Below are positions 1 through 27,392 of a DNA stretch of 35,811 nucleotides, piece by piece. The DNA is from Bacteroidia bacterium. GTDB taxonomy: Bacteria > Bacteroidota > Bacteroidia > Bacteroidales > F082. Both the position numbers and the translations under genes were made by a program. The stretch lies in NCBI GenBank assembly GCA_030537295.1, contig JAUNNU010000014.1:1-35811 (forward strand), written 5' to 3'. Each line of letters starts with the position of its first letter. Position 1 is the first letter of the stretch. Below the pieces are notes generated by a model. That model was not told the DNA's origin and ran no database searches. It was given only the letters and a program-made list of their open reading frames with translations.

Positions 1-1
1 A

Positions 2-5891: not shown

Positions 5892-5926
5892 CGTCACCAC
5901 GATGCGGCGGATCTCCCATATTTTTG
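5892..5926 (+). promoter_or_regulatory. Late promoter P1 (CGTCA-N22-TATTTTTG)
   Basis: TATTTTTG at 5919-5926 is the -7 box, and CGTCA at 5892-5896 lies exactly 22 bp upstream. The upstream box falls inside a hairpin (CCGCCGC at 5886-5892 with GCGGCGG at 5904-5910). The promoter leads directly into the large terminase gene. It is the only one of the six late promoters with C instead of T at the first base of the upstream box. Confidence 0.7.
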
Positions 5927-5944
5927 CCGACCAAAAGCCAAAGG

Positions 5945-7534
5945 ATGAAACAGGTCTATCTTCACAGGGGGCAGCTTCTCTACAAGCTGTGCAGCGCACG
6001 CGACTCGGTGAACATCTGCAGCCGCAGGTGGGGCAAGTCGTGGCTTGTGGCGATGCGCATAATGGAGAACGTCCTCGAGATGCCCGGCGGCCTCGGCGTG
6101 TTCGTGGCGTCGTCGTTCCGCCAGGCGCACTCCCGGACGCTCCCTGCCGCGCTGATGGCGATGGAGGAGTTCGGCTGGCGCCGCGACGTGCATTACGTCA
6201 TCGGGCACCGCCCCGACCCCCGCCTCGGATTCCGCGAGCCGCTGTTCTGCCCGTCGGACCTCAAGGACGTGGTGTGGTTCGCCAACGGCACGCTCATGGT
6301 CATCATCTCGCAGGAGGTCGTCATGTCGGCCAACTCCATGACGGTGCACTGGGTCGTCGGCGATGAGGCCAAGGGACTTGACTACTACAAGCTCTCCAAC
6401 GAACTCTTCCCGGCTGTCGGCGGCTCCGACCGCTGGTTCAACGACCCTGCGAAGTACCCTCACCTGTGGGGCAAGCATTTCTTCACGGACATGCCTACCG
6501 GCAAGGACGGATTGTGGCTTGTCAAGAAGTACGAGAAAGAGTACGACAAGGAGCTGTGCGACACCATCATTGCGATGGAGTGCGAGATACGCCGCCTGGA
6601 ACTTCAGACGGCGAACACATACAACAGCCGAAAGGCGGCGCGTCTGCGCCGTCAGGTGAACCTGCTGCGGTCCAAGGCCTTGTATTATCAGGAGCGTCCG
6701 ATATTCGACAATATCGCCGTGGTGGGCGCAGACTATGTGAAACGTTGTGAGCGTGACCTCACGCCGCTTGTGTTCCGTACGTCAATCCTCACCAGACGTA
6801 TCGATAAGGTGGAAGGAATGTTCTACGACTCGTTTGATCGCAAGGTTCACACATACCACGCGACCGACAACAGCAGGCTGAATGATTATCGTGCGCAGCA
6901 TTACGACTGTCTGCTTGACACCGACCTCGACCGCCACAAGCCAATCGCAGTCTCTTTCGACTACGGCGCACTGATCAACTGGCTTGTGGCGGCACAGATA
7001 CAGGGGCATGTCCACAAGACGCTGAAGAGCTTCTTCACGAAGCACAAGCAGCGTCTTCGCGAAGTGATACAGCTCTTCTGCGATTATTACGAGTCGCATC
7101 TTAACAAGACGGTTATTTATTATTTCGATTCCACGGCATTGGCTACCGGCTATGTCGAGGTCGGGCACAGTGCATACGACATCGTCCACGATGAATTCGC
7201 CAGGCACGGATGGGTGGTGAAGGACGTCCCTCTTGGCAATCCGATGAGGCACGACGCCAAGCACAGCATCATCAATGACGGTTTCTCCGGACAGAAAGAA
7301 CTGTTGCCGATGTTCAACGCCGACAACAACGAGGAACTCCTTCAGGCCATAAGCCTCACGGAAATCCAGATCGGAAGCAAGGGCGTGCGCAAGAACAAAT
7401 CGGGGGAGAAGACCATCGAGACCGACACCAACCTGCCTCTGGAGCTTCGCACCGACGGCACCGACGCCTGGGACACCAATTATCTCGGATGCCTCACATA
7501 TCCTTACGACTCGGACAATTTCAGCTACCTGTAG
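5945..7534 (+). CDS. terL: Terminase large subunit
   Basis: The 529-residue protein is the packaging motor. The ATPase half shows a Walker A-like CSRRWGKS (residues 25-32) and a Walker B with acidic pair VHWVVGDEAK (Asp140, Glu141). The nuclease half shows conserved acidic sites in VSFDYGALINW and YYFDSTA, as expected for the RNase H-like headful or cos nuclease. The ATG at 5945 is chosen because an upstream in-frame TTG at 5924 lies inside the -7 box of the promoter. The gene forms its own unit between promoter P1 and the terminator at 7559-7590. Confidence 0.93.
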   Translation: MKQVYLHRGQLLYKLCSARDSVNICSRRWGKSWLVAMRIMENVLEMPGGLGVFVASSFRQAHSRTLPAALMAMEEFGWRRDVHYVIGHRPDPRLGFREPLFCPSDLKDVVWFANGTLMVIISQEVVMSANSMTVHWVVGDEAKGLDYYKLSNELFPAVGGSDRWFNDPAKYPHLWGKHFFTDMPTGKDGLWLVKKYEKEYDKELCDTIIAMECEIRRLELQTANTYNSRKAARLRRQVNLLRSKALYYQERPIFDNIAVVGADYVKRCERDLTPLVFRTSILTRRIDKVEGMFYDSFDRKVHTYHATDNSRLNDYRAQHYDCLLDTDLDRHKPIAVSFDYGALINWLVAAQIQGHVHKTLKSFFTKHKQRLREVIQLFCDYYESHLNKTVIYYFDSTALATGYVEVGHSAYDIVHDEFARHGWVVKDVPLGNPMRHDAKHSIINDGFSGQKELLPMFNADNNEELLQAISLTEIQIGSKGVRKNKSGEKTIETDTNLPLELRTDGTDAWDTNYLGCLTYPYDSDNFSYL

Positions 7535-7558
7535 TCTGTTTCATTCTTTTTTGTTTTT

Positions 7559-7590
7559 CGCCACCTGACAGAAATGTTGGGTGGCGTTTT
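7559..7590 (+). terminator. Terminator of terL
   Basis: Inverted repeat CGCCACC (7559-7565) and GGTGGCG (7580-7586), followed by TTTT, 24 bp after the terL stop. Confidence 0.8.
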
Positions 7591-8065
7591 CGTCTGCATC
7601 AGTTTCTGCGGAACAGATCCGACGAATGGAGCGGTAATGATACTGACATGTCACATACGCCCTGATTCCGCATGTTAGAATCATTGGTCTTTATTTTATG
7701 CGATTTTCTTTTCCGATTGGAACTCGTTCACGATGTACTTTTATTCCCGGCCATCCATCCCTATCTCTTCATTGTTTCTGCCTTTTCCCGCTGCGAAGAT
7801 ATTTACGTGCGACTTACTTCTCAAGGTCAATGCACTTCGTGTTTCCGAAAAAATCTCCATCCCTGCGGGTAGTATTTTTTCTGAGAAAACCTTGATAAGC
7901 CTCGCACTACTATCTTTTCTGCAGCGTAAAAAGGCGAAACGAAGAGATGACGGGAATGGAATCTCAAAAAAAAATACATCGAACGAGTGTTTCAATTTAA
8001 AAAAGGCTCACTTCAGTAGAATCTAAGAATAGAAAAACAAAAGTTAACAATAAAAATTCAACATT
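7591..8065 (+). other. Noncoding AT-rich stretch
   Basis: About 475 bp without a convincing gene. Short open frames on both strands have a composition unlike protein and no start context. A TGTCA at 7649-7653 has TA 22 bp downstream but not the rest of a -7 box, so it is not called as a late promoter. The segment may be decayed host or phage DNA at an insertion point between terL and the portal operon. Confidence 0.5.
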
Positions 8066-8206
8066 ATGAGCAACACATTGAACTACAGAGATTTGGCTTT
8101 TACAAGCGTTAAGGGTTTGGATTATGATGAACTTCTTCAGCTCCAAGCGGAAACAGGTTTATCAATCAGACAATTAGAATATATGTACTACAAACAAAAT
8201 AATTAA
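8066..8206 (+). CDS. Small hypothetical protein, 46 aa
   Basis: A short gene starting MSNTLNYRDLAF and ending QLEYMYYKQNN. It is 16 bp upstream of the next gene and in the same direction, so the two are probably co-transcribed. The composition is protein-like (DYDELLQLQAETGLS). I do not recognise it. It is AT-rich, like the other genes of this insert and unlike the late genes. Confidence 0.5.
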   Translation: MSNTLNYRDLAFTSVKGLDYDELLQLQAETGLSIRQLEYMYYKQNN

Positions 8207-8222
8207 AATAGGAGACAAAGCA

Positions 8223-8600
8223 ATGGCAACAAAGAAAGAAACACGCAGCGCACTGGCGAAAGAGCGCAGGGAGCAACTGAAAGTATTATCGCAGAAACTC
8301 AAAAGCGACAACGCGATAATGATTATGCAAGACCCGACAATTACGGTCAATAAGTTGCTTCTTCAATGGTACAAACAGAAATTCAATGTTTCGGAACTTA
8401 AGACTTACGAGCAATGGAAAAACTTCGGTTTCCAGGTCAAGAGGGGAGAGGAGTCCTATATGGTATGGGGTACGCCGAGAACCATAAAGATAGGACCGAA
8501 ACCGGAGGACGAAGAGGACCAGGAAGAGAAAGACGACTTTTTCCCGGTGTGCCATCTGTTTGACGCCTCGCAGGTGGCGCCCATTCAGACAAAGAAATAA
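8223..8600 (+). CDS. ArdC-N-like ssDNA-binding/antirestriction protein
   Basis: The 125-residue protein contains the pattern of the N-terminal ArdC domain: NKLLLQWYK, a TYEQWKNFGFQVKRGEES segment, then V(W)GTPRTIK and FFPVCHLFDASQVAP near the end. In ArdC this domain binds single-stranded DNA and is linked to protection of incoming DNA from restriction. Here there is no C-terminal metallopeptidase domain, so this is the N-domain alone. GGAG lies upstream of the ATG. It belongs to a small accessory insert between terL and the portal operon, and may be an antirestriction or DNA-protection moron. Confidence 0.65.
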   Translation: MATKKETRSALAKERREQLKVLSQKLKSDNAIMIMQDPTITVNKLLLQWYKQKFNVSELKTYEQWKNFGFQVKRGEESYMVWGTPRTIKIGPKPEDEEDQEEKDDFFPVCHLFDASQVAPIQTKK

Positions 8601-8635
8601 TTAACTCATTCATTAACAAATAAATTATTAAAATT

Positions 8636-9133
8636 ATGGCAAAAAAAGCAAACGCCGAAAAGGCACAGAACGCCGCCGCCAACGAAGCAGCAGCAAAAGA
8701 AAACGGAGTTATCAACAACGAAGCGGCACAGGCAACACCGACCGCAGAACCAGCAACGGAGCAACCGCAGACAGTCGGCGAAGTTGTTAAAAACATCCTC
8801 GACAAGGAAGCGGAGACACGCAGGGAGATTGAACGCCGACAGGCGGAACTCGACAAGCGTCTCGAAGACCTCGAACGCATGAAGGAACTTTGCAACCACC
8901 GCCAGAAGTTCATCGAGACAGACAAGGCACTCGAAAAGGCACTCGGACGCCTTGACGGTGACGAGTTCACCAACCCGCATTTCCGCATACTTCTCAAAGA
9001 CGTGGAACAATACGGAGACAAAGGCGAGGTCGTGGCAATCAGCAACACCGACTTGATAAGGGAGTTTGTCCTGATGCTTCGCAGCAAGATTGCGGCGAAG
9101 GTCGAGGAGATTGAGACGGAGCTGATGAGTTAG
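8636..9133 (+). CDS. Hypothetical coiled-coil protein
   Basis: This 165-residue protein has an Ala/Asn/Glu-rich N-terminus of about 55 residues, then a strong coiled coil (residues 55-100) and a C-terminal part with FRILLKDV...AISNTDLIREFVLML. Similar proteins occur in Bacteroides mobile elements as far as I can tell, but no function is known to me. It follows the ArdC-N-like gene by 35 bp and ends 23 bp before a strong terminator, closing the accessory unit. Confidence 0.6.
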   Translation: MAKKANAEKAQNAAANEAAAKENGVINNEAAQATPTAEPATEQPQTVGEVVKNILDKEAETRREIERRQAELDKRLEDLERMKELCNHRQKFIETDKALEKALGRLDGDEFTNPHFRILLKDVEQYGDKGEVVAISNTDLIREFVLMLRSKIAAKVEEIETELMS

Positions 9134-9155
9134 CACCACCCGACCGAGAACCATG

Positions 9156-9194
9156 ACGGAGCGGAATCCAAACGGAGACCGCTCCGTTTTTTTT
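9156..9194 (+). terminator. Strong intrinsic terminator
   Basis: Perfect 8-bp stem CGGAGCGG (9157-9164) with CCGCTCCG (9179-9186), followed by eight Ts. It ends the accessory unit 8066-9133. Confidence 0.88.
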
Positions 9195-9320
9195 GCAATT
9201 GCATTGCACCACCGACCACCGACAACAACGAAGCGAACCCGAACCGCTTCGGCATATTTCGCAAAAAGGCGATGCAATTGCCGTTCTTTCGTGAGGGCGG
9301 CGCGGGGTCAAACGACGTAA

Positions 9321-9356
9321 AACCGCCGATTTTTTATTAAAATCGGCGGTTTGTTT
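9321..9356. terminator. Second hairpin, bidirectional type
   Basis: A 10-bp inverted repeat AACCGCCGAT (9321-9330) and ATCGGCGGTT (9342-9351), with A-rich and T-rich flanks on both sides, would work as a terminator in either direction. Together with the neighbouring stems it insulates the portal operon. Confidence 0.65.
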
Positions 9357-9404
9357 GTTGAGTTTCAGGGTTTTTGGTATCGTCAGTTGTGAACTCGCAT
9401 GAAT

Positions 9405-9461
9405 ACACAAAACCGCAGCCGGGTTTCACCTTGTTGTCTCGCCCGGCTGTCGGTTTTGTGT
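9405..9461. repeat. Long imperfect inverted repeat ahead of the portal promoter
   Basis: The left arm at 9405-9423 (ACACAAAACCGCAGCCGGG) pairs with the right arm at 9442-9461 with a single bulged base, around an 18-base loop. The right arm ends inside the TGTCA box of promoter P2. It may be a terminator, an operator, or both. Confidence 0.75.
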
Positions 9462-9493
9462 CACTCTCGGATGTGGGTGGCTTTGTATTTTTG
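9459..9493 (+). promoter_or_regulatory. Late promoter P2 (TGTCA-N22-TATTTTTG)
   Basis: TGTCA at 9459-9463, 22 bp, then TATTTTTG at 9486-9493, 17 bp before the first start codon of the portal operon. The same two boxes with the same spacing occur at five other late starts. Confidence 0.8.
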
Positions 9494-9510
9494 CACAAAA
9501 TAAACAAAAG

Positions 9511-9735
9511 ATGATTCACGAAAGCAAAGTTTTTGAGATTGTGCAGTTGCTTGGAAATTTCTCGCTCAAGTTCGTCAGCAAGACCGGCGAACTCGTGGCG
9601 GTTGACGAATGCAGCTGCACATCTTTCCACAGTTCCGGCAGGACAATGAACATCCGCCTGAAAGGGTCGGGGCTCGTCCGCAAGGTTGTAAGAAAGAGTG
9701 TTGTCGAAATCAACGGAGAGGAGGTCTTTATATGA
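9511..9735 (+). CDS. Small hypothetical protein ahead of portal
   Basis: A 74-residue protein, first gene after promoter P2. It is beta-rich in appearance with conserved-looking Val and Gly positions (FVSKTGELVAVDECS, MNIRLKGSGLVRKVVRKSVVEING). Its stop overlaps the portal start as ATGA, so it is translationally coupled to the portal. The function is not recognised; a small head or packaging accessory is possible from its place alone. Confidence 0.6.
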   Translation: MIHESKVFEIVQLLGNFSLKFVSKTGELVAVDECSCTSFHSSGRTMNIRLKGSGLVRKVVRKSVVEINGEEVFI

Positions 9736-12696: not shown

Positions 12697-12698
12697 CC

Positions 12699-12733
12699 TG
12701 TCACTCCGATGTCGTATGCTGTCCTTACTTTTG
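12699..12733 (+). promoter_or_regulatory. Late promoter P3 (TGTCA-N22-TACTTTTG)
   Basis: TGTCA at 12699-12703 is the right half of a palindromic TGACCTGTCA at 12694-12703 that overlaps the upstream stop codon. TACTTTTG starts exactly 22 bp later at 12726. The same TGACCTGTCA and spacing recur at P5 (24958). The promoter leads into the spanin-like gene at 12750. Confidence 0.8.
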
Positions 12734-12749
12734 CATCAAAATTGATTGT

Positions 12750-13703: not shown

Positions 13704-13726
13704 TTTGTTTTTTTCATTCTTGATAT

Positions 13727-15209: not shown

Positions 15210-15401
15210 ATGAAGTACTCGGAACTTGAAAGAATCCTGAAAAAAGCGGGGTGCTACCCGCTGAAAGGAAAACAGATCAACGGGCATCCGGCTTGGTTCA
15301 GCCCGAAGACGGGCAGGAAGTTCGCGACGAGCAACCACGGCTCGCTTGACGTAAAGCCTGGGACATTGAAACAAATCTTGAAGGACGCGGGGCTTGAATA
15401 A
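15210..15401 (+). CDS. hicA: HicA mRNA interferase toxin
   Basis: The 63-residue protein matches the HicA pattern: KYSELERILKKAGCY at the start, GHPAWFSP in the middle, then the catalytic-His region with SNHGS, and KPGTLKQILKDAGL at the end. HicA binds double-stranded RNA-like structures and cleaves mRNA; the conserved His of HG is at about residue 43. Length is typical. The antitoxin gene is 28 bp downstream, in the usual toxin-first order. The unit is driven from a promoter with a palindromic operator. It may stabilise the prophage or act against other phages. Confidence 0.88.
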   Translation: MKYSELERILKKAGCYPLKGKQINGHPAWFSPKTGRKFATSNHGSLDVKPGTLKQILKDAGLE

Positions 15402-15429
15402 GCCCCGGCTCCTTCGCACACATATAAAA

Positions 15430-15849
15430 ATGGAGACAGTAATAATGGAAAAGAAACACATCACAGCGCACATCGAATGCGGCAGCGACGGCTGGTATTC
15501 GGTTTATCACAACGAAGACCTCCCATTCGGATTCTTCGGCGAGGGGAGGACGGTAAGGGCGGCCAAGGAGGATTTTCTCGCCACCTTCGAGGAATTCAGA
15601 AAAGACCATCTCGAAGAGACCGGCGAGAACGTGGAGGCGGAATTTGATTTCATTTATGACGCTTCGGCATTCCTCCAGCATTACAAGAACATTCTGACAC
15701 TTTCAGGATTGTCAAAAATGACAGGCATCAACAAGGTGCAGCTTTCACAGTATGTGAGAGGCTTGCGCCATCCGTCGCCCCGCACGCAGGAGCGCATAAA
15801 GGCCGGGGTGCAGCGGTTCGCACAGGAACTGAGCCGCGCAATGGCATGA
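15430..15849 (+). CDS. hicB: HicB antitoxin with HTH domain
   Basis: About 139 residues. The N-terminal half has the degenerate RNase H-like HicB fold (AHIECGSDGWYSVY; then FGEGRTVRAAKEDFLATFEEF). The C-terminal half carries a helix-turn-helix (LSKMTGINKVQLSQYVRGLRHP) that should bind the operator upstream of hicA. HicB neutralises HicA by direct binding. The start at 15430 is chosen; 15445 (MEKKHIT) is an alternative, and an upstream in-frame ATG at 15394 would overlap hicA. A strong terminator follows at 15891. Confidence 0.88.
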   Translation: METVIMEKKHITAHIECGSDGWYSVYHNEDLPFGFFGEGRTVRAAKEDFLATFEEFRKDHLEETGENVEAEFDFIYDASAFLQHYKNILTLSGLSKMTGINKVQLSQYVRGLRHPSPRTQERIKAGVQRFAQELSRAMA

Positions 15850-16517: not shown

Positions 16518-16632
16518 CCTCCGTCATACGTGAAAGCGGCGCACGCCCGCTTTATTCTCCGCCTGTAACCGGTTACAGTAACCGGTCACAAATCCCCCCG
16601 GAAAATTTTTTTCAAAAAAATGAAAAAAAATG

Positions 16633-16662
16633 TTGCACATATCAAAAAACACCGTATCTTTG
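16633..16662 (+). promoter_or_regulatory. Host-type promoter of the 16870-17895 operon
   Basis: TTG at 16633-16635 and TATCTTTG at 16655-16662 with 19 bp between them fit the Bacteroidetes -33/-7 consensus. No TGTCA is found at the late-promoter distance, so this unit is probably not late-controlled. Confidence 0.7.
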
Positions 16663-16873
16663 CAGCGTTCAAGAAATGGTAGTAAACTACTTCGCACGGG
16701 CAGCGGTCAAATGCTCGAATTAACTCCGGGCATTTTTTAATGCCCGAAAGAAACAAAGACCTCGCGGTCGCCTTTGCGTGAAATTATTTGCTCTGCGGAG
16801 TGATACCATTTCTTGAACAGCGCATCGGCGGCCGCTTTTTTTGCCGCCATAACAAAAAATGTTCAAGAAATGG
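16663..16873 (+). ncRNA. Switch-like 5' leader RNA
   Basis: A 15-base segment at 16804-16818 is perfectly complementary to 16667-16681, closing a roughly 150-base structure. The same segment is also complementary over 13 bases to 16861-16873, which holds the start codon of the first gene (ATG at 16870). The two pairings exclude each other. Smaller hairpins lie inside (16727-16746, CGGGCAT/ATGCCCG; 16754-16776; 16791-16800) and between antisense and gene (16827-16848, GGCGGC/GCCGCC). This is the layout of a translation-control switch; a free 6S-like hairpin RNA is an alternative. Confidence 0.6.
16676..16723 (+). CDS. Possible 15-aa leader peptide
   Basis: An ATG inside the first copy of the repeated start-codon sequence opens a frame reading MVVNYFARAAVKCSN and then a stop, followed 3 bp later by the CGGGCAT/ATGCCCG hairpin. 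Because its start sequence is the same 13 bases as at the real gene start (16870), ribosomes that initiate on one should be able to initiate on the other. Translation here would melt the leader stem and release the antisense segment. There is no coding signature beyond the frame itself. Confidence 0.3.
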   Translation: MVVNYFARAAVKCSN

Positions 16874-17229
16874 AAAACAGAAAGAAGACAGCCGGAGAGA
16901 CGGCGAGAGAGAGGCGGAGCCTCACACCAGCACAGATGGAAAACCTCGTGAGGGTGTCATGCGAAATCAGCGAAATCAACAGTGCCATTAAAAACGTCCA
17001 TCCCGAGAACGGTTACAAAAAAACCGTCATTCTTCGCGGCGGACACGGTGAGGTGGCGGTCACGTCGCACAGCGACATGAATCCCGTCCGCGACATGAAC
17101 GGCGATCCGATGGTCACAATCCACGACCCGCAGTTCTTCGAGCTTATAGCACAGTATTTCAACGACAAAAAAACCTTGCTTGTAGAGGAGATTGAAGCGA
17201 TAATGAGTGAGGAAGGAGGTGCGGAATGA
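16870..17229 (+). CDS. Hypothetical protein, first gene of switch-led operon
   Basis: This 119-residue protein begins MENRKKTAGETARERRSLTP. The basic N-terminus is followed by a helical part, then a beta-rich region (YKKTVILRGGHGEVAVTSH) and an acidic helix ending in EEGGAE. I do not recognise the family. The ATG lies inside the 13-base repeat that can be sequestered by the leader. Its last codons, GGAE, are encoded by the Shine-Dalgarno of the next gene. Confidence 0.62.
   Translation: MENRKKTAGETARERRSLTPAQMENLVRVSCEISEINSAIKNVHPENGYKKTVILRGGHGEVAVTSHSDMNPVRDMNGDPMVTIHDPQFFELIAQYFNDKKTLLVEEIEAIMSEEGGAE
17213..17220 (+). promoter_or_regulatory. Perfect Shine-Dalgarno 1
   Basis: AAGGAGGT, 5 bp before the ATG at 17226, is a full match to the 16S rRNA tail. 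It overlaps the 3' codons of the previous gene. Such sites are rare in Bacteroidetes, and this operon has three in a row. Confidence 0.8.
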
Positions 17230-17465
17230 GAGAGACATCGTCATATCCGAAGAGGATGACCATCATCCGCGACTGCCACTGGAGCAACAACACGGTGGTG
17301 AACGTCGAGAACAGAATTGTAGAACGTTTCCTGCGCCTGTGGGTGCGCGGCATGGGGTGGCATCTCGCCAACATGCCGAAGCGCGCGGCGGCGCAGACAA
17401 AGGAGACAGGGGCGTCGCCGAGGAAACGGCAGGTGAACAGCAGCAAGAAAGGAGGTGCGGAATGA
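17226..17465 (+). CDS. Small basic hypothetical protein, 79 aa
   Basis: The protein starts MRETSSYPKRMTIIRDCHW and is rich in Arg and Lys (WVRGMGWHLANMPKRAAAQTK). The strongly basic composition suggests nucleic-acid binding, without a recognisable motif. It overlaps the previous stop (ATGA) and ends in the same GGAE residues, again encoded by the next Shine-Dalgarno. Confidence 0.58.
   Translation: MRETSSYPKRMTIIRDCHWSNNTVVNVENRIVERFLRLWVRGMGWHLANMPKRAAAQTKETGASPRKRQVNSSKKGGAE
17448..17457 (+). promoter_or_regulatory. Perfect Shine-Dalgarno 2
   Basis: AAAGGAGGTG, 4 bp before the ATG at 17462. The surrounding bases GGAGGTGCGGAATGAG are identical to those of site 1, so the junction itself is repeated. 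Confidence 0.8.
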
Positions 17466-17770
17466 GCCGGAAATATGTATGCAGCGAAGTGATAAGCGAA
17501 TGGTTTAACGACTTCGATTGCGAGAAGGACAGCTGGGTCATCGATGAGATAATAGACGACCTGTTCAACGCCCTGGTCGACACCAACCAGCTGATGAAAG
17601 AATGCGGCGGCGGCGACCAGGCCGAGGCCCGCCTGCGCACCATCAACAAGGTGATCGTGTCGGCGCTCACCGACATGCGGCGGCTGATGAAGGAGATAGC
17701 CCGGCAGATCGAGGATGGCGACATACTCTCTATGGGCGGCAAACGCGGAGGGAAAGGAGGTGATGAATGA
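17462..17770 (+). CDS. Hypothetical helical protein, 102 aa
   Basis: The protein starts MSRKYVCSEVISEWFNDFD and reads as helical (WVIDEIIDDLFNALVDTNQLM; MRRLMKEIARQIEDGDIL). It ends in a Gly/Lys-rich tail encoded by the next Shine-Dalgarno. The frame is open far upstream, but the start at 17462 is supported by the perfect Shine-Dalgarno and the ATGA overlap. The function is unknown. Confidence 0.6.
   Translation: MSRKYVCSEVISEWFNDFDCEKDSWVIDEIIDDLFNALVDTNQLMKECGGGDQAEARLRTINKVIVSALTDMRRLMKEIARQIEDGDILSMGGKRGGKGGDE
17754..17764 (+). promoter_or_regulatory. Perfect Shine-Dalgarno 3
   Basis: AAGGAGGTGAT, 2 bp before the ATG at 17767, pairs along its whole length with the canonical 16S rRNA 3' tail. 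It is the strongest of the three. Confidence 0.8.
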
Positions 17771-17895
17771 CCAAGACTGAACTCATGACGGAGCTGTGCA
17801 CCACTGCAGCCGAAATCGAGGAGGCCAAGACGAAGCTCGACGACATCGGCCGGAAGTTGCGGCGGATCATACATGACGCAGGCGAAAGCCTGTGA
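17767..17895 (+). CDS. Small hypothetical protein, 42 aa
   Basis: The protein starts MTKTELMTELCTTAAEIEEA and is a single predicted helix or short coiled coil (AKTKLDDIGRKLRRI). The start is fixed by Shine-Dalgarno 3 and the ATGA overlap with the previous stop. It is the last gene of the operon; the terminator begins 2 bp after its stop. The function is unknown. Confidence 0.55.
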   Translation: MTKTELMTELCTTAAEIEEAKTKLDDIGRKLRRIIHDAGESL

Positions 17896-17896
17896 G

Positions 17897-17941
17897 AAGA
17901 AGGGAGCTGTCACTGCGCGGTGGCGGCTCCTTCTTATTTTT
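17897..17941 (+). terminator. Terminator overlapping late promoter P4
   Basis: The left arm AAGAAGGGAGC (17897-17907) pairs with GCTCCTTCTT (17926-17935) with one bulge, followed by ATTTTTG. The T tract is at the same time the -7 box of promoter P4, and the TGTCA box lies in the loop. One sequence thus ends one unit and starts the next. Confidence 0.75.
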
Positions 17942-17942
17942 G
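17908..17942 (+). promoter_or_regulatory. Late promoter P4 (TGTCA-N22-TATTTTTG)
   Basis: TGTCA at 17908-17912, 22 bp, TATTTTTG at 17935-17942. Downstream of the -7 box the sequence CGACCAAAA-CCAAA is shared with P1 ahead of terL. It drives the 7-kb tail operon. Confidence 0.8.
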
Positions 17943-17963
17943 CACGACCAAAAACCAAAATTT

Positions 17964-18422
17964 ATGCTGAGTCTCCAATATATAAGGCAGGTGCTGCCCG
18001 GACAGCTGGAAGGGGTGTCAGACAGCCAGATCATCGAATCGGCGGCTGGCTACGACGGCATCGTGGCCCTCGTGCAGACAAAGGGGCTGCCGACAGCCGT
18101 GGTGCTTGAACACAACGATGTGGGCGAGTTCTCGTTCCGTCCGGGCGGCTTCCTGAAGGCCTCGCAGTCGCTGTGGGTGATGCGCATGGTCGGACGCGAC
18201 GCCGACCGCCGCGCCGTGCAGGACGAGTGCGCCGCGCTGATGAAGCGCATCCTCTCGGTCTTCGCGGCCCGGGGCGACGACGCACAGCTCGCCGGATGGG
18301 AGTGGAACTCCGTGCCCTACGGCATACGCAACGCGGGGCCGAACTACACCGGCTATGAGTTCACCATGAATTTCTCCGAAGACATCGATTTGAGCTACGA
18401 TGGACAGACAGAAACTCGTTGA
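17964..18422 (+). CDS. Putative tail completion/minor tail protein
   Basis: A 152-residue protein, first gene of the tail operon under P4. It begins MLSLQYIRQVLPGQL and has a SFRPGGFLKASQSLWVMRMVG segment in the middle and a beta-rich end (WNSVPYGIRNAGPNYTGYEF). Its place before a gp10-like gene and the tape measure fits a head-tail joining or tail terminator protein, which is an inference from order only. The ATG at 17964 is chosen because upstream in-frame starts precede the promoter. It overlaps the next gene by 23 bp. Confidence 0.6.
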   Translation: MLSLQYIRQVLPGQLEGVSDSQIIESAAGYDGIVALVQTKGLPTAVVLEHNDVGEFSFRPGGFLKASQSLWVMRMVGRDADRRAVQDECAALMKRILSVFAARGDDAQLAGWEWNSVPYGIRNAGPNYTGYEFTMNFSEDIDLSYDGQTETR

Positions 18423-18780
18423 CCTGAAGGAGTGGGCCGAGATTACGGTTCAGCGTTGGGAGATGCGCATCTCGAAACTCCGTTTCCTGCCCGGACACAC
18501 CAGCGCACTCATCAACTCGTTCCGCGCCCATGTCGAGAAGGACGCCGGGGGCGACAACGGCAAGATAGCCTTCACGTTCCTTTTCTACGGCTACTACGTC
18601 GATGCGGGGGCGGGACCCGGCAGCCGAGCCCCGAAGAAATGGTTCAACAAGATCTACTGGCGCGAGTTCAACCAGCTGTCGAGGCTGCTCGCCGCCCAGT
18701 ACGGAGATGAAGCGGTTGACGGATTTATGAAATCAATAGAAAGGATCAATTACCATGGCCAAGAACACACAGGAAGCTGA
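18400..18780 (+). CDS. HK97 gp10-like tail component
   Basis: This 126-residue protein has the pattern of gp10-type tail proteins in Bacteroides phages: a helical N-terminus (LVDLKEWAEITVQRW), then LINSFRAHV, FLFYGYYVDAGAGPGS, and WFNKIYWREFNQLSRLL. Proteins of this family take part in head-tail joining. It overlaps the gene before by 23 bp and the tape measure gene by 26 bp, as expected in a compact late operon. Confidence 0.62.
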   Translation: MDRQKLVDLKEWAEITVQRWEMRISKLRFLPGHTSALINSFRAHVEKDAGGDNGKIAFTFLFYGYYVDAGAGPGSRAPKKWFNKIYWREFNQLSRLLAAQYGDEAVDGFMKSIERINYHGQEHTGS

Positions 18781-21700
18781 AGTCATCGTGACGCTTAACG
18801 GCGAACCGGCGAAAAGGGTACTCGACGAGCTTGAGAAGGAATACAAGGACCTTGAGAAAGCCGCGCTCGCCGCCTACAAGGCGGGTGATGAAGCCCTCGG
18901 CAAGAAACTCGAGAACCAGGCGCAGAAAGTGCGCAAGTCGTTTGAGGTCGCCAAGGTTGAGGCGAAGAAATTCGACGAGATAATCAAGAACATCAACTCG
19001 GCGACCCTCAAGGAGCTGAACAACGTGTCGAAGCAGCTGCGCAACGAGCTGAACAGACTCGCGCCCGGCACGCAGGCGTTCATCGACAAGACGAAGCAGC
19101 TGCAGCAGGTCAACGCACGCATCGGCATGCTGAAGCAGGGCTTCCGCGGCGTCGTCGAGGAACAGAAAAAGCTCTCGCTCAAAAGCCTGTCGGACGGCTT
19201 CAACCGATATTTCGGCATTGTCACCGCCGGCATCGGGGCGGTGACGGGGCTGTCGGTGGCCTTCCGCAAGGCGGCGCAGGCGGCGGCGGAACTCGACGAC
19301 ACCTACGCCGACGTGATGAAGACCACCGGGCTGACGCACGACGAGGTGAAGGCACTCGACGCGGAACTGATGAAACTGGACACCCGCACGTCACGAGAGA
19401 AACTGCTTCAACTTGCACGCGATGCCGGGAAGCTCGGCATCACAGGCACACAGAACGTCCTTGATTTCGTCGCGGCGGCCGACAAAATCAACGTCGCATT
19501 GGGCGAAGACCTCGGCGAAGGCGCAATCCGCAACCTCGGAAAGATTTCAGACGTGTTCGGCCTCACCGACGCGCTCGGAACAGGGGATGCACTCACAAAG
19601 GTGGGTTCGGCAATAAACGCTGTCGGACAGGCGTCAACTGCCAACGAGGCTTATCTGGTGCAATTCACACAGCGTCTGGCAGGTGCGATGGCGCAGGCGA
19701 AGATTTCGGTGGCCGACACAATCGGCTTCGCATCGGCGTTCGACCAGTCGGGAATGGCGGTCGAAATGGCTTCGACCGCCTTGCAGCAGTTCATCACCAA
19801 GATGTTCACCAACACGGCGACGTTCGCGAAATACGCCAAGATGGAGGTCGGTGACTTCACACGGCTTCTTGAAACGGACGCCAACAAGGCGATAGTCACG
19901 GTGATGAAGTCGCTGAACCAGTCCGGCGGATTCGCCGAGATGATAGGGATGTTCAAGGACATGGGCGCGGACGGAGTGCGGGCGGTCAGCGCGTTGTCGG
20001 CAGTGGCGCAGAACATCGATGCGGTGACCGAAGCGCAGGCGCTCGCCAACGTTGAGTTTGAAAAGGGGACCTCCCTCCAGCAGGAGTTCGACACAAAGAA
20101 CAACAACCTCCAGGCGCAGCTCGAGAAGGCGCGCAAGGAGTTCCACAACGCCACCATAGCTCTCGGACAGTCGCTTAACCCGGCGCTGCTGAAATCGACC
20201 AACGGCTTGACGTACATGATCAGGGCACTCTCCACATACGGCAGGGAGATAAGGAACGCCTTGATAGCGGTAGCCGCCCTGACCGTCGCGGTGAAGGCGC
20301 ACGCCATCGCACACGGCATCGCCAACGCCGTGGTGAAGACGGGGGCGGCCCTGCGGGCGACCGGCACTGTCGTGGTGAACGCTTCAAGGCTCGCCTACGC
20401 GAAGCTGACAGGTGCGACGGCGGCGGCGACGGCGGCGCAGACTGCCCTGAACACCGCAATGAGCGCGTCGGTGTTCGGCATGATAGCACTCGCGGTGACG
20501 GGTGTCACCGTGGCAATCACGAGATGGGTCAAGAACAGCCGTGAGGCGCGCGCCGAAGCACAGTACATGGAAGACATCAACAAACGCATCGCTGATTCAT
20601 ACAGCTCGGAAGCCGGACGTGTCACGGCCCTGAGCAACATAATCCATAACAACAGCCTTGCCATCGACACAAGGCGCAGGGCGTTGGCGGAACTGAACAA
20701 ACTCGTTCCGGGATACCACGCGAGCCTTACGGAGGAGGGGAAACTGATCGACGACAACACCGAAGCCCTCGACGCCTATCTCAAAAAACTCGAGATGACC
20801 ACGCGCTCCAAGATTCTGGAAGAGGAATATACCGGCGCGACATCAGAAGTGCTTCAGGCGGAAAAACTCCTGGAACAGGCACGGCAAGCCGCAGACGAGG
20901 CTCTGGTCAAAGCCGGTGGAGATAACAGGGAGACAGTCACGAAGACTGTGCCGATGACATTTGACGGCCAGCAGTTCGAACAGACGCTGACATATACAAC
21001 AGAATACGGAAGGGCGATGGAGGAAGTTTACAAGAAGACAGTAGAACTGACAAAAGCGCAGGAGAAACAGGCGGCCATAATGTCCCGCATCGGCAAGGAA
21101 GAGGTCTGGGGAGCCGGAGCCGGAGGCGTGGATGATGCCGCGACAGGCAAACCTGCCGCCGCCGACATATCCGGCATCGAGGCCGCGAATGAAATACTCA
21201 CGCAAGCACAGTTCAAACTCCTTCAGGAACGCTATCGCAAGCTCACAAAGAGCGAAAAGAATCTTGTTGACAAAGGCTACGCAGCCCTCACAGAAGAGGA
21301 GTCGCGGACGCTCAAAGACCGCTATGACCGATTTGTTGAGGCTGACAAACGTCTTGCCGACAAGCGTTACAACGACGCTGTGAAAGCCCTCGACAACCAG
21401 CAGCGCGCCGAACAGAACGAGGCGAAGCGTGGCTATCTGACGGGAGAGCTTTCGGCGGAACAGTACGAACAGCGGCTTCTTCAAATCAAAGACGAAACGC
21501 TCGCCAAGAAGCTCGAACTCGCGAAGAAGGAAGGCAGGGACACCTCGTCAATCGAACAACAGATTCTCGACCAGCAGATCGGCGCAAACAAAGCCGCATA
21601 CGACAGGCAGCTCAAGGAACTTGAGAGAGAGCAGAAGAACGAGGAGTACATTCTTCTGATGTCAAGAGCGGGGAGACTGATCACGGAAGAGGAGTTTGAG

Positions 21701-22849
21701 TCGCGTACGCTCCAGCTGAAGATGCTGTATCTTCAGAAGAGGCTCGATCTCGTCAGAGCCTCCGGCATTGACGAAACAGCCGCGCTGCAGGCGATTTTCG
21801 ACGCGCAGACCGAGGCGCAGGAACTTGCGAACAGCAAGCTTGACAAGATGAGAGAAGAAGCCGGTGCAGTCAAGGAGAAGCTCGACCCCGACTCGACGCA
21901 GGCGCAAAACCTCCAGTCGGAGCTCGACCGCCTCGAAGAGCTGCACGCCGCCAAGCTGCTGAGTGAGGAGGAGTACGAAAAGGCCGTGGCGCAGCTGCAG
22001 GAGGAGTACGCACAGGAGAGCCTCAAGAAGAAGCTTGAAAAAGCATCGGGGTACATCCAGCAGGTGCAGGGTGTCCTCAACGCCGCATCCGACTTTACGT
22101 CGGCTCTGCAGAGCGCAGAGACAGCGCAGCTGGAAGCCGAATACCAGGCTCGCCTTGCGGCTGCCGGTGACAACGCCGAGGAACGAGAGGCCATCGAGGC
22201 GGAGTACGAGCAGAAGAAATTGGACACCCAGAAGAAGTACGCCGACGTTGACATGGTGATCAACATCGCCAAGACAATAGCGTCGGGTGCCCTTGCGGCG
22301 GTGCAGTGTTTCGCGCAGCTGGGACCGGTGGCGGGGGCGGTGATGGCGGCTGTCATAGCCGGCACCACGGCGGCGGAGATAGCCACCATCGTGGCGCAGC
22401 GCAACGCCATTAAGAACGCGAGCGTCAGCGGCGGCGGCTCGGCCCAGAAAACGGGCGTGCGCACCGTCACGGGGTTCGCCGAAGGCGGCTACACGGCGGC
22501 GGCGCAGTCAGACAGCAAGCCCGTGGGCGTGGTGCACGCCAACGAATGGGTCGCCCCCGCCTGGATGGTGAGGGAAGACCCGGTGAGGTTCGCCGACCTC
22601 GAACGCTACCGCCGCACACGCCAGCGCAGCCGGGCGGGTGAACCGGGCGGGGGATTCGCCGCCGGCGGCTACACCGGCGGCGGCGCGGCCCAGAACAGCA
22701 CAACTGACGCCAAGACCATAGGGGAAGCCGTGGCGCGCGCTGTGGGCGACACCCTCACGAAGAATCCGCTGCGGTCGTATGTGGTGCGCAATGACATCAG
22801 GGAACTCGACAAACAGGATGAAAGATTCAAAAAACAGACATCGAGATGA
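18755..22849 (+). CDS. Tail tape measure protein
   Basis: At 1364 residues this is the longest gene. It opens with a coiled coil (residues 1-150), then a conserved tape-measure core with ELDDTYADVMKTTGLTHDEV and FQQ-type repeats near TALQQFITKMF, two hydrophobic segments (around residues 500-600), a long charged coiled-coil middle, a second hydrophobic segment near 1180-1220, and a Gly-rich end with GFAEGGYT and FAAGGYTGGG. These are the marks of phage tail tape measure proteins (PF10145 type). At about 0.15 nm per residue it predicts a tail near 200 nm; that is a rule-of-thumb estimate. The stop overlaps the next start (ATGA). Confidence 0.92.
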   Translation: MAKNTQEAEVIVTLNGEPAKRVLDELEKEYKDLEKAALAAYKAGDEALGKKLENQAQKVRKSFEVAKVEAKKFDEIIKNINSATLKELNNVSKQLRNELNRLAPGTQAFIDKTKQLQQVNARIGMLKQGFRGVVEEQKKLSLKSLSDGFNRYFGIVTAGIGAVTGLSVAFRKAAQAAAELDDTYADVMKTTGLTHDEVKALDAELMKLDTRTSREKLLQLARDAGKLGITGTQNVLDFVAAADKINVALGEDLGEGAIRNLGKISDVFGLTDALGTGDALTKVGSAINAVGQASTANEAYLVQFTQRLAGAMAQAKISVADTIGFASAFDQSGMAVEMASTALQQFITKMFTNTATFAKYAKMEVGDFTRLLETDANKAIVTVMKSLNQSGGFAEMIGMFKDMGADGVRAVSALSAVAQNIDAVTEAQALANVEFEKGTSLQQEFDTKNNNLQAQLEKARKEFHNATIALGQSLNPALLKSTNGLTYMIRALSTYGREIRNALIAVAALTVAVKAHAIAHGIANAVVKTGAALRATGTVVVNASRLAYAKLTGATAAATAAQTALNTAMSASVFGMIALAVTGVTVAITRWVKNSREARAEAQYMEDINKRIADSYSSEAGRVTALSNIIHNNSLAIDTRRRALAELNKLVPGYHASLTEEGKLIDDNTEALDAYLKKLEMTTRSKILEEEYTGATSEVLQAEKLLEQARQAADEALVKAGGDNRETVTKTVPMTFDGQQFEQTLTYTTEYGRAMEEVYKKTVELTKAQEKQAAIMSRIGKEEVWGAGAGGVDDAATGKPAAADISGIEAANEILTQAQFKLLQERYRKLTKSEKNLVDKGYAALTEEESRTLKDRYDRFVEADKRLADKRYNDAVKALDNQQRAEQNEAKRGYLTGELSAEQYEQRLLQIKDETLAKKLELAKKEGRDTSSIEQQILDQQIGANKAAYDRQLKELEREQKNEEYILLMSRAGRLITEEEFESRTLQLKMLYLQKRLDLVRASGIDETAALQAIFDAQTEAQELANSKLDKMREEAGAVKEKLDPDSTQAQNLQSELDRLEELHAAKLLSEEEYEKAVAQLQEEYAQESLKKKLEKASGYIQQVQGVLNAASDFTSALQSAETAQLEAEYQARLAAAGDNAEEREAIEAEYEQKKLDTQKKYADVDMVINIAKTIASGALAAVQCFAQLGPVAGAVMAAVIAGTTAAEIATIVAQRNAIKNASVSGGGSAQKTGVRTVTGFAEGGYTAAAQSDSKPVGVVHANEWVAPAWMVREDPVRFADLERYRRTRQRSRAGEPGGGFAAGGYTGGGAAQNSTTDAKTIGEAVARAVGDTLTKNPLRSYVVRNDIRELDKQDERFKKQTSR

Positions 22850-24960: not shown

Positions 24961-24962
24961 CC

Positions 24963-24997
24963 TGTCATCATTTTCATTCAGGAACGGAATATTTTTG
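24963..24997 (+). promoter_or_regulatory. Late promoter P5 (TGTCA-N22-TATTTTTG)
   Basis: TGTCA at 24963-24967 is again part of TGACCTGTCA (24958-24967), overlapping the upstream stop exactly as at P3. TATTTTTG follows at 24990-24997 after 22 bp. The start codon is only 5 bp past the -7 box (25002), giving a nearly leaderless transcript. Confidence 0.8.
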
Positions 24998-25001
24998 CAG
25001 C

Positions 25002-26408
25002 ATGACAACGAACGATTTCATACAAAAACCAACAGGCAATGAGACGTACGCACTCAACAAGGTGCCGGCGTTCATTGTCAGCACCAACGTCCCCGTGAGG
25101 GCTTCCGTCAGGGTTGACGGGCAAAGCAATCCGTTTTATGTGGCGACGTACTCGCCTGATTTCAGCGGCAGGGTGACTGTTGACTTCGGGGATCTGTACG
25201 GAGACTGCATCGGCACGGTGCTGCCGCAATCGGATGACTACACGCAGCAGGGCTACAGGAAGCTGTTCCATGTCAACATTATAGAGACATCGGGCGAATT
25301 CGCCCAGGGATATACAGGGGTCAGTTTCCAATATTATGTGGCGGCCACGCGGCTGAAGTCGCCGACGGCGTTCTCGACATGGTGCCTCAATCATTTTCTC
25401 ACAAACCAGCCGATTGAGAAGGTCACGACCCACGAGGCTGTGGAGTGGCTCACCTTCTTCAGCCCGGGAGAGAAACGCACGCTCAAAGTCCGTTTCTACT
25501 CGAAATCCGGCACAAGCTACGATTATGTGGTCAAATCAACCAACACGGCGGGCTGCCACACCGAAAATGTCAGCTACAGCAGAGTTATCAAAAACAATCT
25601 GTTCATCCCCGGAACGATGCTCGGCTACTACGACCTCATCCTGATGGATGACGACATGCACGAACTTGCCGTTCAGCGTTACATCTACAGCGAGTACAGC
25701 GGGCTTGAGAAATACTTCTGCTTCGTCAACCAGCTCGGCGGCATCGACACGCTGATCTGCCGCGGGGCGAACACGCTGCAGCCGGAGATGACGCACAGCG
25801 TCGGACGTTTCGGCGGACGTTACCTGCCGGTCGATGACACGGAAGACGTGCGCGAATGGGGGCAGAACAGCGGCATGATGCCGTACCGTCAGCGCGACTG
25901 GATATGGGAGCTGCTGTCGGCCAAGAAGGATGCTTGCAAATATGAGCCGTCGGACAAGTCGTTCAATGACATTGTCGTGAAGTCGTCGGAGATAAGCATG
26001 AGCGATGACGATCAGCTTGCGTCATGTTCGTTCACGTACATCTACAGGGACGAGTCTGGCGGTGTCAACACGCAGGGCGGACACGGTTATCTGCACAACT
26101 CGTCCGTCATCAAACATGAAGAGATGAAAGACCTCACGGAGAATGTCGAGCTGGGAGTAGAAGACGACGTGACACAGTCCGTCACGGTCAACGCCACGAA
26201 AGTGTTCGTGGAATACACCACAAGGGGCGCGTCGCTGTCGAGGTACGACCCGGTTTATTATTACATAGGCGACGCCACGGAGCCGTCGGGCAGCTTCACC
26301 CCCGGCGAGCAGGACTCTATGGTCATCGAAATCGAGGAGGGACAGTCAATCCGTTTCTCCACGGAAAACAGTGACATCGCGAAGATAACGGTGAAGTATT
26401 ATAAGTGA
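25002..26408 (+). CDS. Tail-associated structural protein
   Basis: A 468-residue protein, beta-rich throughout, starting MTTNDFIQKPTGNETYALNK. It has an early part with VPAFIVSTNVPVRASVRVDG and FSGRVTVDFGDLYGD, a middle with LEKYFCFVNQLGGIDTLICRG, and a C-terminal segment of about 90 residues that looks like a separate beta domain (SGSFTPGEQDSMVIEIEEG). It lies between the tail tip gene and the lysis genes, so it is probably a virion tip or fibre-anchor protein. The start at 25002 follows promoter P5; an upstream in-frame GTG or TTG would precede the promoter. Confidence 0.65.
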   Translation: MTTNDFIQKPTGNETYALNKVPAFIVSTNVPVRASVRVDGQSNPFYVATYSPDFSGRVTVDFGDLYGDCIGTVLPQSDDYTQQGYRKLFHVNIIETSGEFAQGYTGVSFQYYVAATRLKSPTAFSTWCLNHFLTNQPIEKVTTHEAVEWLTFFSPGEKRTLKVRFYSKSGTSYDYVVKSTNTAGCHTENVSYSRVIKNNLFIPGTMLGYYDLILMDDDMHELAVQRYIYSEYSGLEKYFCFVNQLGGIDTLICRGANTLQPEMTHSVGRFGGRYLPVDDTEDVREWGQNSGMMPYRQRDWIWELLSAKKDACKYEPSDKSFNDIVVKSSEISMSDDDQLASCSFTYIYRDESGGVNTQGGHGYLHNSSVIKHEEMKDLTENVELGVEDDVTQSVTVNATKVFVEYTTRGASLSRYDPVYYYIGDATEPSGSFTPGEQDSMVIEIEEGQSIRFSTENSDIAKITVKYYK

Positions 26409-26436
26409 TGATGGATTTTTAAAAACCTTAAGCCAA

Positions 26437-26913
26437 ATGTTTAAATTCTTGAACATCTATCCGGAGAAAACGCTGGCGGGAATCGTGTCGGGGCTGCTCT
26501 CCTATTTGACGCGCAACATCATGCCACTCGTGGCGTGCGTGCTGTTATTCGAAATCATCGACTTCATAACAGGGGTTTGGAAGTCGAAAATCCTCGCCAG
26601 ACGGCGCGGGGAGAAGTTCGCCTTCGAGTCGGTCAAGGCGTGGCGCACGATTTACAAGACCGTCTTCATCCTTGCCGGGATAATCATGTCAGAGCTGCTT
26701 GACGTGGTAATCTCCGAACGAGACCTGAGGCTCGCCAATTTCTTCACGGCGTTCTGCTGCGGCGTGGAGTTCTGGAGTTTCCTCGAGAACGCAGCGGTGA
26801 TCAGCGACCACCCTCTGTTCAGATGGCTTGGCAAGTTCATGAGGGTCAAAGTTGAAGACAAAATCGATTTCGACAAATTCACCGAGGGGAGGACGGGACA
26901 TGACCAGGGCTGA
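26437..26913 (+). CDS. Holin (phage_holin_4-type)
   Basis: The 158-residue protein has several hydrophobic segments (about residues 27-47, 72-92 and 105-118) and the pattern of the toxin-secretion/phage-lysis holin family: NIMPLVACVLLFEIIDFITGVWKSK, then FESVKAWRTIYKTV and the WSFLENAA region. It makes the inner-membrane lesion that starts lysis. It lies 28 bp after the tail-associated gene, and its end overlaps the endolysin start by 14 bp. The charged C-terminus is probably cytoplasmic. Confidence 0.85.
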   Translation: MFKFLNIYPEKTLAGIVSGLLSYLTRNIMPLVACVLLFEIIDFITGVWKSKILARRRGEKFAFESVKAWRTIYKTVFILAGIIMSELLDVVISERDLRLANFFTAFCCGVEFWSFLENAAVISDHPLFRWLGKFMRVKVEDKIDFDKFTEGRTGHDQG

Positions 26914-27352
26914 AATTGTAAGAGGGCTGAAAAGTTATTTCTCCATAGGTGAACTTGTCTGCCCGCACATCATGGGCAGGTTCAGGGGGAAGGAGGAGAC
27001 GGCGTGGGATTTTTTGGACAAGGATCTTCTGGAAGTCATTCTGTGGATCCGCAGGAGCATCAACAGACCCGTTACAGTCAACAGTCAGGGTCTCGGCTTC
27101 ACACAGCGCGGAATGCGCTGCAACCTGTGCAAGATTGTCAAAGACAAGGACGTCGCCTATCTGTCGTCACACGTCCTCGGATCCGGGATTGATTTCGATG
27201 TCGAGGGCATGACCGCTGAGGAAGTGCGCAGGTGGATCGTCGCGAACAAGGCATCGCTGCCGCACGCAATCCGCCTTGAGAGAGGCGTCAACTGGGTTCA
27301 CCTTGATGTGCGCAACGAGACATCCGAAAGAATCGTGTGGTTCAACCAGTAG
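26900..27352 (+). CDS. Endolysin, M15-type peptidoglycan peptidase
   Basis: The 150-residue protein has the zinc-site pattern of M15 peptidases (VanY/Peptidase_M15_3 type): SSHVLGSGIDFDV with His91 and Asp98, and VNWVHLDV with His134 and Asp136. It should cleave peptide stems or cross-links of peptidoglycan. No signal peptide is present, so it depends on the holin for access. The ATG at 26900 is preferred to an upstream in-frame one at 26852 inside the holin gene. Promoter P6 begins 5 bp after the stop. Confidence 0.9.
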   Translation: MTRAEIVRGLKSYFSIGELVCPHIMGRFRGKEETAWDFLDKDLLEVILWIRRSINRPVTVNSQGLGFTQRGMRCNLCKIVKDKDVAYLSSHVLGSGIDFDVEGMTAEEVRRWIVANKASLPHAIRLERGVNWVHLDVRNETSERIVWFNQ

Positions 27353-27357
27353 CACGG

Positions 27358-27392
27358 TGTCACGTTCAGGCATGGCGTGAATATTATTTTTG
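27358..27392 (+). promoter_or_regulatory. Late promoter P6 (TGTCA-N22-TATTTTTG)
   Basis: TGTCA at 27358-27362, 22 bp, TATTTTTG at 27385-27392. It drives the second tail-tube paralog and the DGR target gene. Confidence 0.8.

Follow-up and report, generated by a model that had tools for sequence, protein, structure and literature searches.

Introduction

Several phage systems for starting a set of genes together have been described. The C and Mor proteins of phage Mu are small pre-late proteins that bind near or over the -35 element and act with the host RNA polymerase at several promoters. In phage T4, MotA and AsiA rely on a phage box at a fixed distance; it takes the place of the -35 element, and the -10 element stays in use. 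P2 Ogr/Delta, lambda Q, and ArpU/RinA are encoded at the early/late junction and drive several late units. Ogr binds further upstream, and lambda Q is an antiterminator. This report concerns six copies of a promoter-like element, TGTCA-N22-TAnnTTTG, in a prophage of a Bacteroidales bacterium, and the phage protein that may read them. The sites lie on contig JAUNNU010000014.1 of assembly GCA_030537295.1, a draft genome of 2.87 Mb in 238 contigs. The whole contig of 35,811 nucleotides (G000:C153:1-35811) was analyzed and is called the window.

Host promoters in this phylum are read by a sigma-A that uses -7 and -33 elements. The -7 consensus with its following pyrimidine is TANNTTTGY (PMC12632263), and the -7 box of Flavobacterium spans -12 to -5 (PMC9723704).

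The six sites are probably late promoters, at which a phage protein of about 175 amino acids (aa) would read the box with sigma-A and start the late units. Each promoter of this temperate tailed phage would combine a normal sigma-A -7 box, TAnnTTTG, with a phage-specific box (TGTCAC in this clade) that replaces the -33 element. The phage box would sit at a single fixed distance and cover about -40 to -33, a position that follows from the published span of the Flavobacterium -7 box (PMC9723704). The gene for its reader would close the early region and directly precede the first late gene. Once made, this protein would bind the box beside sigma-A and supply the missing -33 contact, and the late units would thereby start together. 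The same protein family, mostly with the box TGTCCTTT, would run the late genes of a broad set of temperate Bacteroidota phages, and the window would belong to a single clade whose box and protein have both changed.

Six sites ahead of late units

The original prediction placed TGTCA, or CGTCA once, at a constant distance before a TAnnTTTG box at six late units. All six sites hold at the predicted spacing of 22 bp, five of them exactly and the one at 5892 with CGTCA (Table 1). With at most one mismatch the window contains nine matches, against 0.58 expected, and none of 100 shuffles reaches nine. The remaining three (14242 and 25937 on the minus strand, 33939 on the plus strand) break the -7 box or TGTCA. 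The element is present on 6 of 13 plus-strand TAnnTTTG boxes in the window and on none of the six minus-strand boxes. The five comparison promoters said to lack it do so (plus-strand boxes 15179, 15987, 16655, 31756/31766, and 34873).

In the relative G303, whose terL is 80% identical, the first late gene has a site ahead of it, as do the portal, spanin-like, tail, tail-tip, and fibre units. Of the six window sites, five have a counterpart there. The portal-unit gene of the window matches G303 16609-17988, a gene that falls in one profile family with gp28 of Bacteroides phage BT-TP2, which its depositors label as portal. Site 5892, the sixth, comes after a two-gene insertion. The sites thus stand at the same units in related phages, on one strand, at one spacing, and without enrichment in host genomes, all of which supports reading them as late promoters. 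As in a late-activator regulon, a single box recurs at a constant position ahead of several late units, and other promoters lack it.

Spacing and specificity of the box

The constant part of the element is GTCA(C/T), with its G 26 base pairs (bp) upstream of the T of TAnnTTTG. Sixty unique sites from the window and its relatives were picked by GTCA-N22-TAnnTTTG, so their -7 box was set by the search. Their consensus is a T-rich run, GTCACT, an almost uninformative spacer, and TA-T-TTTG-C. GTCA is followed by C in 57 of them and then by T in 42, and the base after the -7 box is C in 56 and T in 3. Among the window sites, the T-run is largely present only at 9459.

A terL search of IMG/VR yielded 13 loci. 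In 12 of them there is one or more NGTCA-N22-TAnnTTTG site, and every such site is on the strand of terL. In 13 stitched contigs, the late strand has 45 cases of GTCAC at spacing 21 ahead of TAnnTTTG; the other spacings between 8 and 51 have none, nor does the opposite strand at 21. Across 20 contigs (the window and related phages), 56 of 218 forward boxes have GTCAC at offset 26, and the remaining offsets between 14 and 44 have none. The start of an open reading frame is at most 150 bp away from 45 of 58 late sites versus 49 of 153 other boxes, and positions deep inside a gene are taken by 4 of 58 versus 51 of 153.

Chance is rejected by the shuffles and by the spacing tests, which give a clear peak. 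Mere common descent of the DNA around late genes would fit the close relationship of several contigs and the repetition of G303 sites in G885. It does not fit 60 of 61 late sites being distinct as 58-mers, the zero counts at other spacings, or the recurrence of a TGTCC form of the box in phages with 23-33% terL identity. The probability left to chance or descent is negligible.

A packaging, replication, or repression site in place of a promoter element is very improbable. A repressor operator could likewise overlap the -33 region. Such a site would not call for 60 unique copies that all keep one distance to the -7 box across an uninformative spacer, nor for several sites at unit starts in each phage, one of which (5892) lies beside an insertion.

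The original prediction would have been refuted by an equal abundance of the pattern upstream of host genes. The genome that holds the window has 10 exact matches, 5 in the window and 5 in the other ~2.8 Mb, and 1 match to a reversed control. In 99 genomes of the host family there are 133 matches versus 233 for the reversed pattern. A host regulon is therefore rejected, as the pattern is rarer than its control.

The -33 element

All six window sites have the sigma-A form, TAnnTTTG followed by a pyrimidine, and a -33 TTG is present at none of the six. In 92 other promoter-like boxes, TTG peaks at offsets 22-23, at ~10% each versus ~2% background. Together these offsets hold TTG in about 21% of the 92 boxes versus 2% of 61 late sites. 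At offsets 22-25, TTG occurs in 1 of 61 late sites, and the phage box occupies offsets 26-21.

The proposal that the box replaces the -33 element stands in its geometry and in the lack of TTG at the window sites. The relatives speak against a clean replacement, as 23% of their late sites have TTG at offset 21 (GTCACTTG). When TTG is counted anywhere at offsets 20-24, late sites and other boxes are similar (15 of 61 and 26 of 92). The exact distance to a normal -7 element would be expected of a protein that touches the adjacent sigma factor, as in Mu C and T4 MotA.

A candidate activator at the early/late junction

A phage activator was also part of the original prediction, to be sought in the left part of the prophage. 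The window begins inside the first late unit, so the activator gene would lie outside it. A strong candidate was found there: a ~175-aa protein, predicted from its gene at the early/late junction on contig C214 of the same genome (Table 1). It adjoins a primase of the G303 type, and the host genome has one terL of the window's kind. Very probably C214 supplies the left part that this prophage lacks in the window, and comparison with G303 suggests that about a kilobase is missing between C214 and C153. The gene order in G303 is primase, candidate, cluster 14, a late site at 7788, cluster 10, and capsid. Since G303 has a late site ahead of the gene that is cut by the contig start, a further site is expected to the left of the window, as the promoter of the cluster 10 gene.

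By BLAST, the ~175-aa protein between the primase and the first late gene is the sole early gene common to the early regions compared. The primases form two clusters by BLAST and one family by profile. A search of IMG/VR with the candidate family returned 13 loci, 9 on known contigs and 4 new (L101, L103, L106, and L107). The new loci hold 4, 4, 4, and 5 GTCAC-N21-TAnnTTTG sites, each set on one strand, with no control matches. A site also lies ahead of the regulator gene itself in G306 and G884, and as GTCGC in G883 and GTCCG in G008. This arrangement would be positive feedback.

Two other assignments were set aside. Cluster 14 (~140 aa) lies beside the candidate and was considered as the activator; BLAST finds it only in the window's clade, and it reads like a structural protein. 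A small-terminase role was considered for the candidate; in the window's clade, cluster 0 directly precedes terL.

Short iteron-like repeats lie between the primase and the candidate gene, within roughly the 130 bases upstream of the latter, in G000:C214 (L087) and also in L050, L065, L072, and L015. The repeat word differs per phage (TGTAACA, GTTGAACA, TGTAGCAC, and TTGTCA). These repeats are possibly a replication origin.

Distant relatives and their boxes

Distant homologues of the candidate occur in phages of Bacteroides, Porphyromonas, Flavobacterium, Cellulophaga, and Polaribacter. Most are accompanied by TGTCCTTT, placed one base further upstream. In G008, G144, G182, G078, and G074, which have the protein, 6 of the 44 boxes are preceded by GTCC at a distance of 27 bases from TA. 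GTCAC is never at its place in these five, and the other offsets between 14 and 44 together give GTCC a single time.

A scan of IMG/VR for TGTCCTTT-N20-TAnnTTTG gave at least 120 loci. Among the 120 listed, 16 records have at least two sites on the same strand. The family is encoded in 14 of these 16 (profile A4, E 1.7e-8 to 1.2e-51) and in none of 16 controls. The controls are records of 28 to 102 kb, with hosts unmatched, that have a single match in a scan of IMG/VR for TGTCACTT; all 80 matches listed from that scan are single in their stretch. A4 holds no row from the 16 records and is not wholly independent of the box, as G222, G135, and G097 arose in an iteration that included some TGTCC loci. 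The junction gene is thus linked to the box in 14 of 16 versus 0 of 16 records among the loci listed, in 4 of 4 new loci, and in 12 of 12 diverse phages. The last figure comes from profile iterations from G303 and BT-TP2 that reach the same candidate member separately. They were started from single proteins and are free of the dependence of A4.

Seven of 46 terL-related GenBank phages were taken whole: Bacteroides BT-TP2, Porphyromonas 028a, Flavobacterium 6H and laban6-1, Cellulophaga Ingeline_1, Polaribacter Leef_1, and a human faecal contig. Each has one clear family member (A4, E 3.7e-15 to 1.1e-6), and Pg028a also has a weak match of 61 aa. A box of the phage's own type lies either at the end of the member or no more than about 650 bp further downstream. 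When one mismatch in the -7 box is allowed, late-strand GTCC at offset 27 occurs five times in BT-TP2, Ingeline_1, and the faecal contig, four times in 028a, twice in Leef_1, once in laban6-1, and not at all in 6H. Control means are 0.2-0.6 for other offsets; for the opposite strand they are 0.3-1.0, and single offsets on that strand reach 4. In laban6-1, ATGTCACAA stands at five places preceding late genes. In 6H, ATGTCTTAAA stands at three places in one phase and at a fourth one base off. The boxes of these two phages were chosen after a search for enriched words. TGTC is thus shared, and the remainder of the box varies.

The box also follows the clade. In the window's clade, each contig that includes a late region has between 1 and 7 GTCAC sites at 26, and other contigs have none. 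Outside this clade, GTCC at 27 is absent from G135 and 6H, occurs once in G186, G074, G078, G891, G895, and laban6-1, and occurs 2 to 6 times in the rest. Fourteen contigs in this comparison were preselected by their TGTCC box, and their counts prove nothing new. C214 has no late region and hence no sites; on the tree it is labelled by the window's box. In a maximum-likelihood tree of 45 members (midpoint root; G885, G052, and G296C23 dropped as near-copy or fragment), the GTCAC rows form one side of one branch (100/99), beside the group of G008, G144, and G182. Box type and offset agree with the position of the protein on the tree.

A wider proposal is that one protein family is the general late switch of temperate tailed phages across Bacteroidota, including those of rumen Bacteroidales, with the TGTC core kept and the rest of the box and its phase shifting by one base between clades. 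A single protein would then substitute for the -33 contact made by the unusual sigma-A of the phylum. We give this slightly better than even chances. The clade series TGTCCTTT, TGTCAC, ATGTCACAA, and ATGTCTTAAA would then be matched protein-box pairs, a part of the proposal held with the same narrow preference.

Weighing the assignment

Several observations weigh against the ~175-aa protein as the activator or limit the reach of the box. The box changed once on the tree, and the change alone would fit any gene of the clade. G386, of the window's genus, has GTCAC sites, and its genome lacks a family member. The sites lie in a truncated prophage (G386:C2, about 19116-35866) that keeps tail genes, integrase, and late sites, and no relative of the regulator, terL, or portal was seen in that stretch. 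G135 and G186 have the protein without a clear box, and two TGTCC records among the loci listed, 7.9 and 18.3 kb long, are without the protein. Most -7 boxes are one base off in many distant phages, and not every counted GTCC site marks the start of a unit, as at Pg028a 3727. Strict TGTCCTTT is not enriched over 393 whole genomes (86 versus about 95 for the control, by hand count), so only one-strand clusters in phage late regions are meaningful.

Other genes are also widespread. By profile, terL, portal, and some head genes are found in all 12 diverse phages, and the primase-helicase in 11. The gp15 family (~110 aa) is found in 10 of 12; it lies in the packaging block and has a helix-turn-helix annotation in BT-TP2. 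Its members may be a small terminase subunit or a second regulator. That the primase and gp15 are nearly as universal by profile slightly reduces confidence in the candidate.

It is accordingly conceivable, and we think unlikely, that the reader of the box is a different phage protein or a host factor and that the candidate has a different junction role, such as packaging or head assembly. The breadth of the genes just listed would allow this, as would the exceptions G386, G135, and G186 and the LuxR-annotated early genes of 6H, laban6-1, Ingeline, and Leef. No LuxR-annotated gene is among the families present in at least 6 of the 12 phages, a set followed only from the genes of G303 and BT-TP2. 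The absent host enrichment and the clade-specific boxes make a host factor a poor fit. The terL, portal, head, and gp15 genes lie inside late units and would provide no natural first switch, and gp15 sits beside terL, the usual place, it seems, of small terminase subunits. The candidate remains the best choice because structural and packaging genes are inside late units and the primase is a replication protein of ~1000 aa. The runner-up is gp15.

In the domain libraries scanned, no DNA-binding domain is named for the candidate family. Pfam scans of overlapping sets (4, 5, and 10 single members and the 30 members of alignment A5) and an NCBIfam scan of 5 members gave no match to Mor/C, Ogr/Delta, Q, ArpU, RinA, or sigma-70. 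The Pfam matches are scattered and weak, all above E 0.02, and 1 of 30 members touches HTH_Tnp_Mu_2 at E 0.21. Solved structures in the PDB gave no match to profile A3. Two distant members touch PHROG phrog_21888, of unknown function, at E 1.9e-4 and 6.6e-3. The alignment of 30 members has a C-terminal pattern, F...Y.I....s.d.l.K...R, with one invariant Arg, and a C-terminal helix-turn-helix is our own reading of this alignment. Searches by tblastn with members from L092, L089, L087, L173, and L108 found none in annotated phages at E 1e-3 or 1e-2. Profiles found members in the same collection, so single-sequence searches miss them.

A further alternative, which we consider quite unlikely, is that the candidate is a small sigma-like factor that replaces sigma-A at late promoters. 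One protein reading both elements would fit the single fixed spacing. The -7 box is also off by one base in 4 of 5 sites in each of BT-TP2 and Ingeline and in all 5 ATGTCACAA sites of laban6-1. In the window, by contrast, all six -7 boxes match the sigma-A consensus (PMC12632263), and the Pfam scans contain no sigma-70 region. An activator acting with sigma-A is thus preferred. Late timing, DNA binding by the candidate, and activation with sigma-A are what we infer; the sequence itself establishes where the sites are, how they are spaced, on which strand and next to which genes they lie, that the protein family exists, where it is encoded, and that it is associated with the box.

The prophage in the window

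The window holds the right part of the prophage, with terL (PHROG phrog_2), tape measure, holin, and endolysin genes (PHROGs), a reverse transcriptase, and an integrase. The features discussed are collected in Table 1.

Table 1. Putative late promoters, candidate activator, and associated genes. Coordinates refer to the window unless another contig is named.
Feature	Location	Strand	Remarks
Putative late promoter CGTCAC-N21-TATTTTTG	5892..5926	+	just 5' of terL; no G303 counterpart before terL
Putative late promoter TGTCAC-N21-TATTTTTG	9459..9493	+	portal unit; G303 counterpart 16308
Putative late promoter TGTCAC-N21-TACTTTTG	12699..12733	+	unit labelled spanin in the original prediction; G303 counterpart 19585
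Putative late promoter TGTCAC-N21-TATTTTTG	17908..17942	+	tail unit; G303 counterpart 22515
Putative late promoter TGTCAT-N21-TATTTTTG	24963..24997	+	tail-tip/holin/endolysin unit; G303 counterpart 29421
Putative late promoter TGTCAC-N21-TATTTTTG	27358..27392	+	fibre unit; G303 counterpart 31806
Candidate activator	G000:C214:15-539	-	E 1.2e-77; sole copy in host genome
Cluster 10, first late gene, 3' part	1..625	+	G303 order compared
Two-gene insert (DUF4417; CdiA_C-like domain)	4537-5737		directly ahead of terL; not at that place in G303
Tape measure	18755-22849		PHROGs
BT-TP2 gp15	L364 12401-12745		near terminase genes; relatives in 9 other phages

Two paralogous genes of one cluster lie at 1965-2555 in the capsid unit and 27377-28291 in the fibre unit, and the pair is also found in G295 and G303. 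The truncated prophage on G386:C2 keeps homologues of the gene pair at 15210-15849 of the window. A tRNA-Ala (34731-34804) adjoins the integrase (33480-34607) and is a possible attachment site. A reverse transcriptase lies between the late genes and the integrase in both BT-TP2 (L364 40959-42254) and the window (32105-33439), as in diversity-generating elements.

Significance and comparison with known systems

Bacteroidota phages occur in the gut, mouth, rumen, and sea. A late-promoter rule would allow late units and inserted genes to be annotated from sequence and would help to separate intact from decayed prophages. Protein-box pairs would offer a direct route to activator action with a sigma factor whose elements are -7/-33 rather than -10/-35. 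They could also be switchable promoters for Bacteroides genetics.

Literature searches covered the late promoters or activators of phages from Bacteroides, Bacteroidetes, Flavobacterium, or Porphyromonas, as well as TGTCCTTTT, and none of the matches listed was on the subject. One of the closest known systems is gp8 of BT-TP2 (XPO95538.1), a family member (A4, E 2.7e-11) encoded between the primase-family gene gp6 and the head genes. Its depositors annotate it as a "transcriptional regulator". BT-TP2 has five GTCC sites at offset 27, located at 6522, 10592, 17978, 25812, and 32317, each preceding a gene. It differs from the window in its box, GTCCTT with G at 27 versus GTCAC with G at 26, and in that 4 of 5 -7 boxes have one mismatch.

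Compared with the sigma-A promoters of Bacteroidota, the sites share the -7 consensus (PMC12632263, PMC9723704) and differ in that the -33 place is held by TGTCAC or TGTCC-type boxes.

Among the phage systems, Mu C and Mor share with the candidate a small size, a pre-late place, and a box near or over the upstream element. They differ in that the candidate family has no Mor-family Pfam match, the box is another, and the host sigma-A uses -7/-33. T4 shares the replaced upstream element and differs in using two proteins on middle genes; the Pfam scans contain no MotA or AsiA family, and no AsiA-like partner was looked for. The resemblance to Ogr/Delta, Q, and ArpU/RinA is in the junction gene, whereas the family lacks a Pfam match to any of them, as do five proteins in NCBIfam. 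The best reading of these comparisons is a late activator family that is without a named model in the libraries scanned and that would bind at about -40 to -33 in place of the sigma-A -33 contact.

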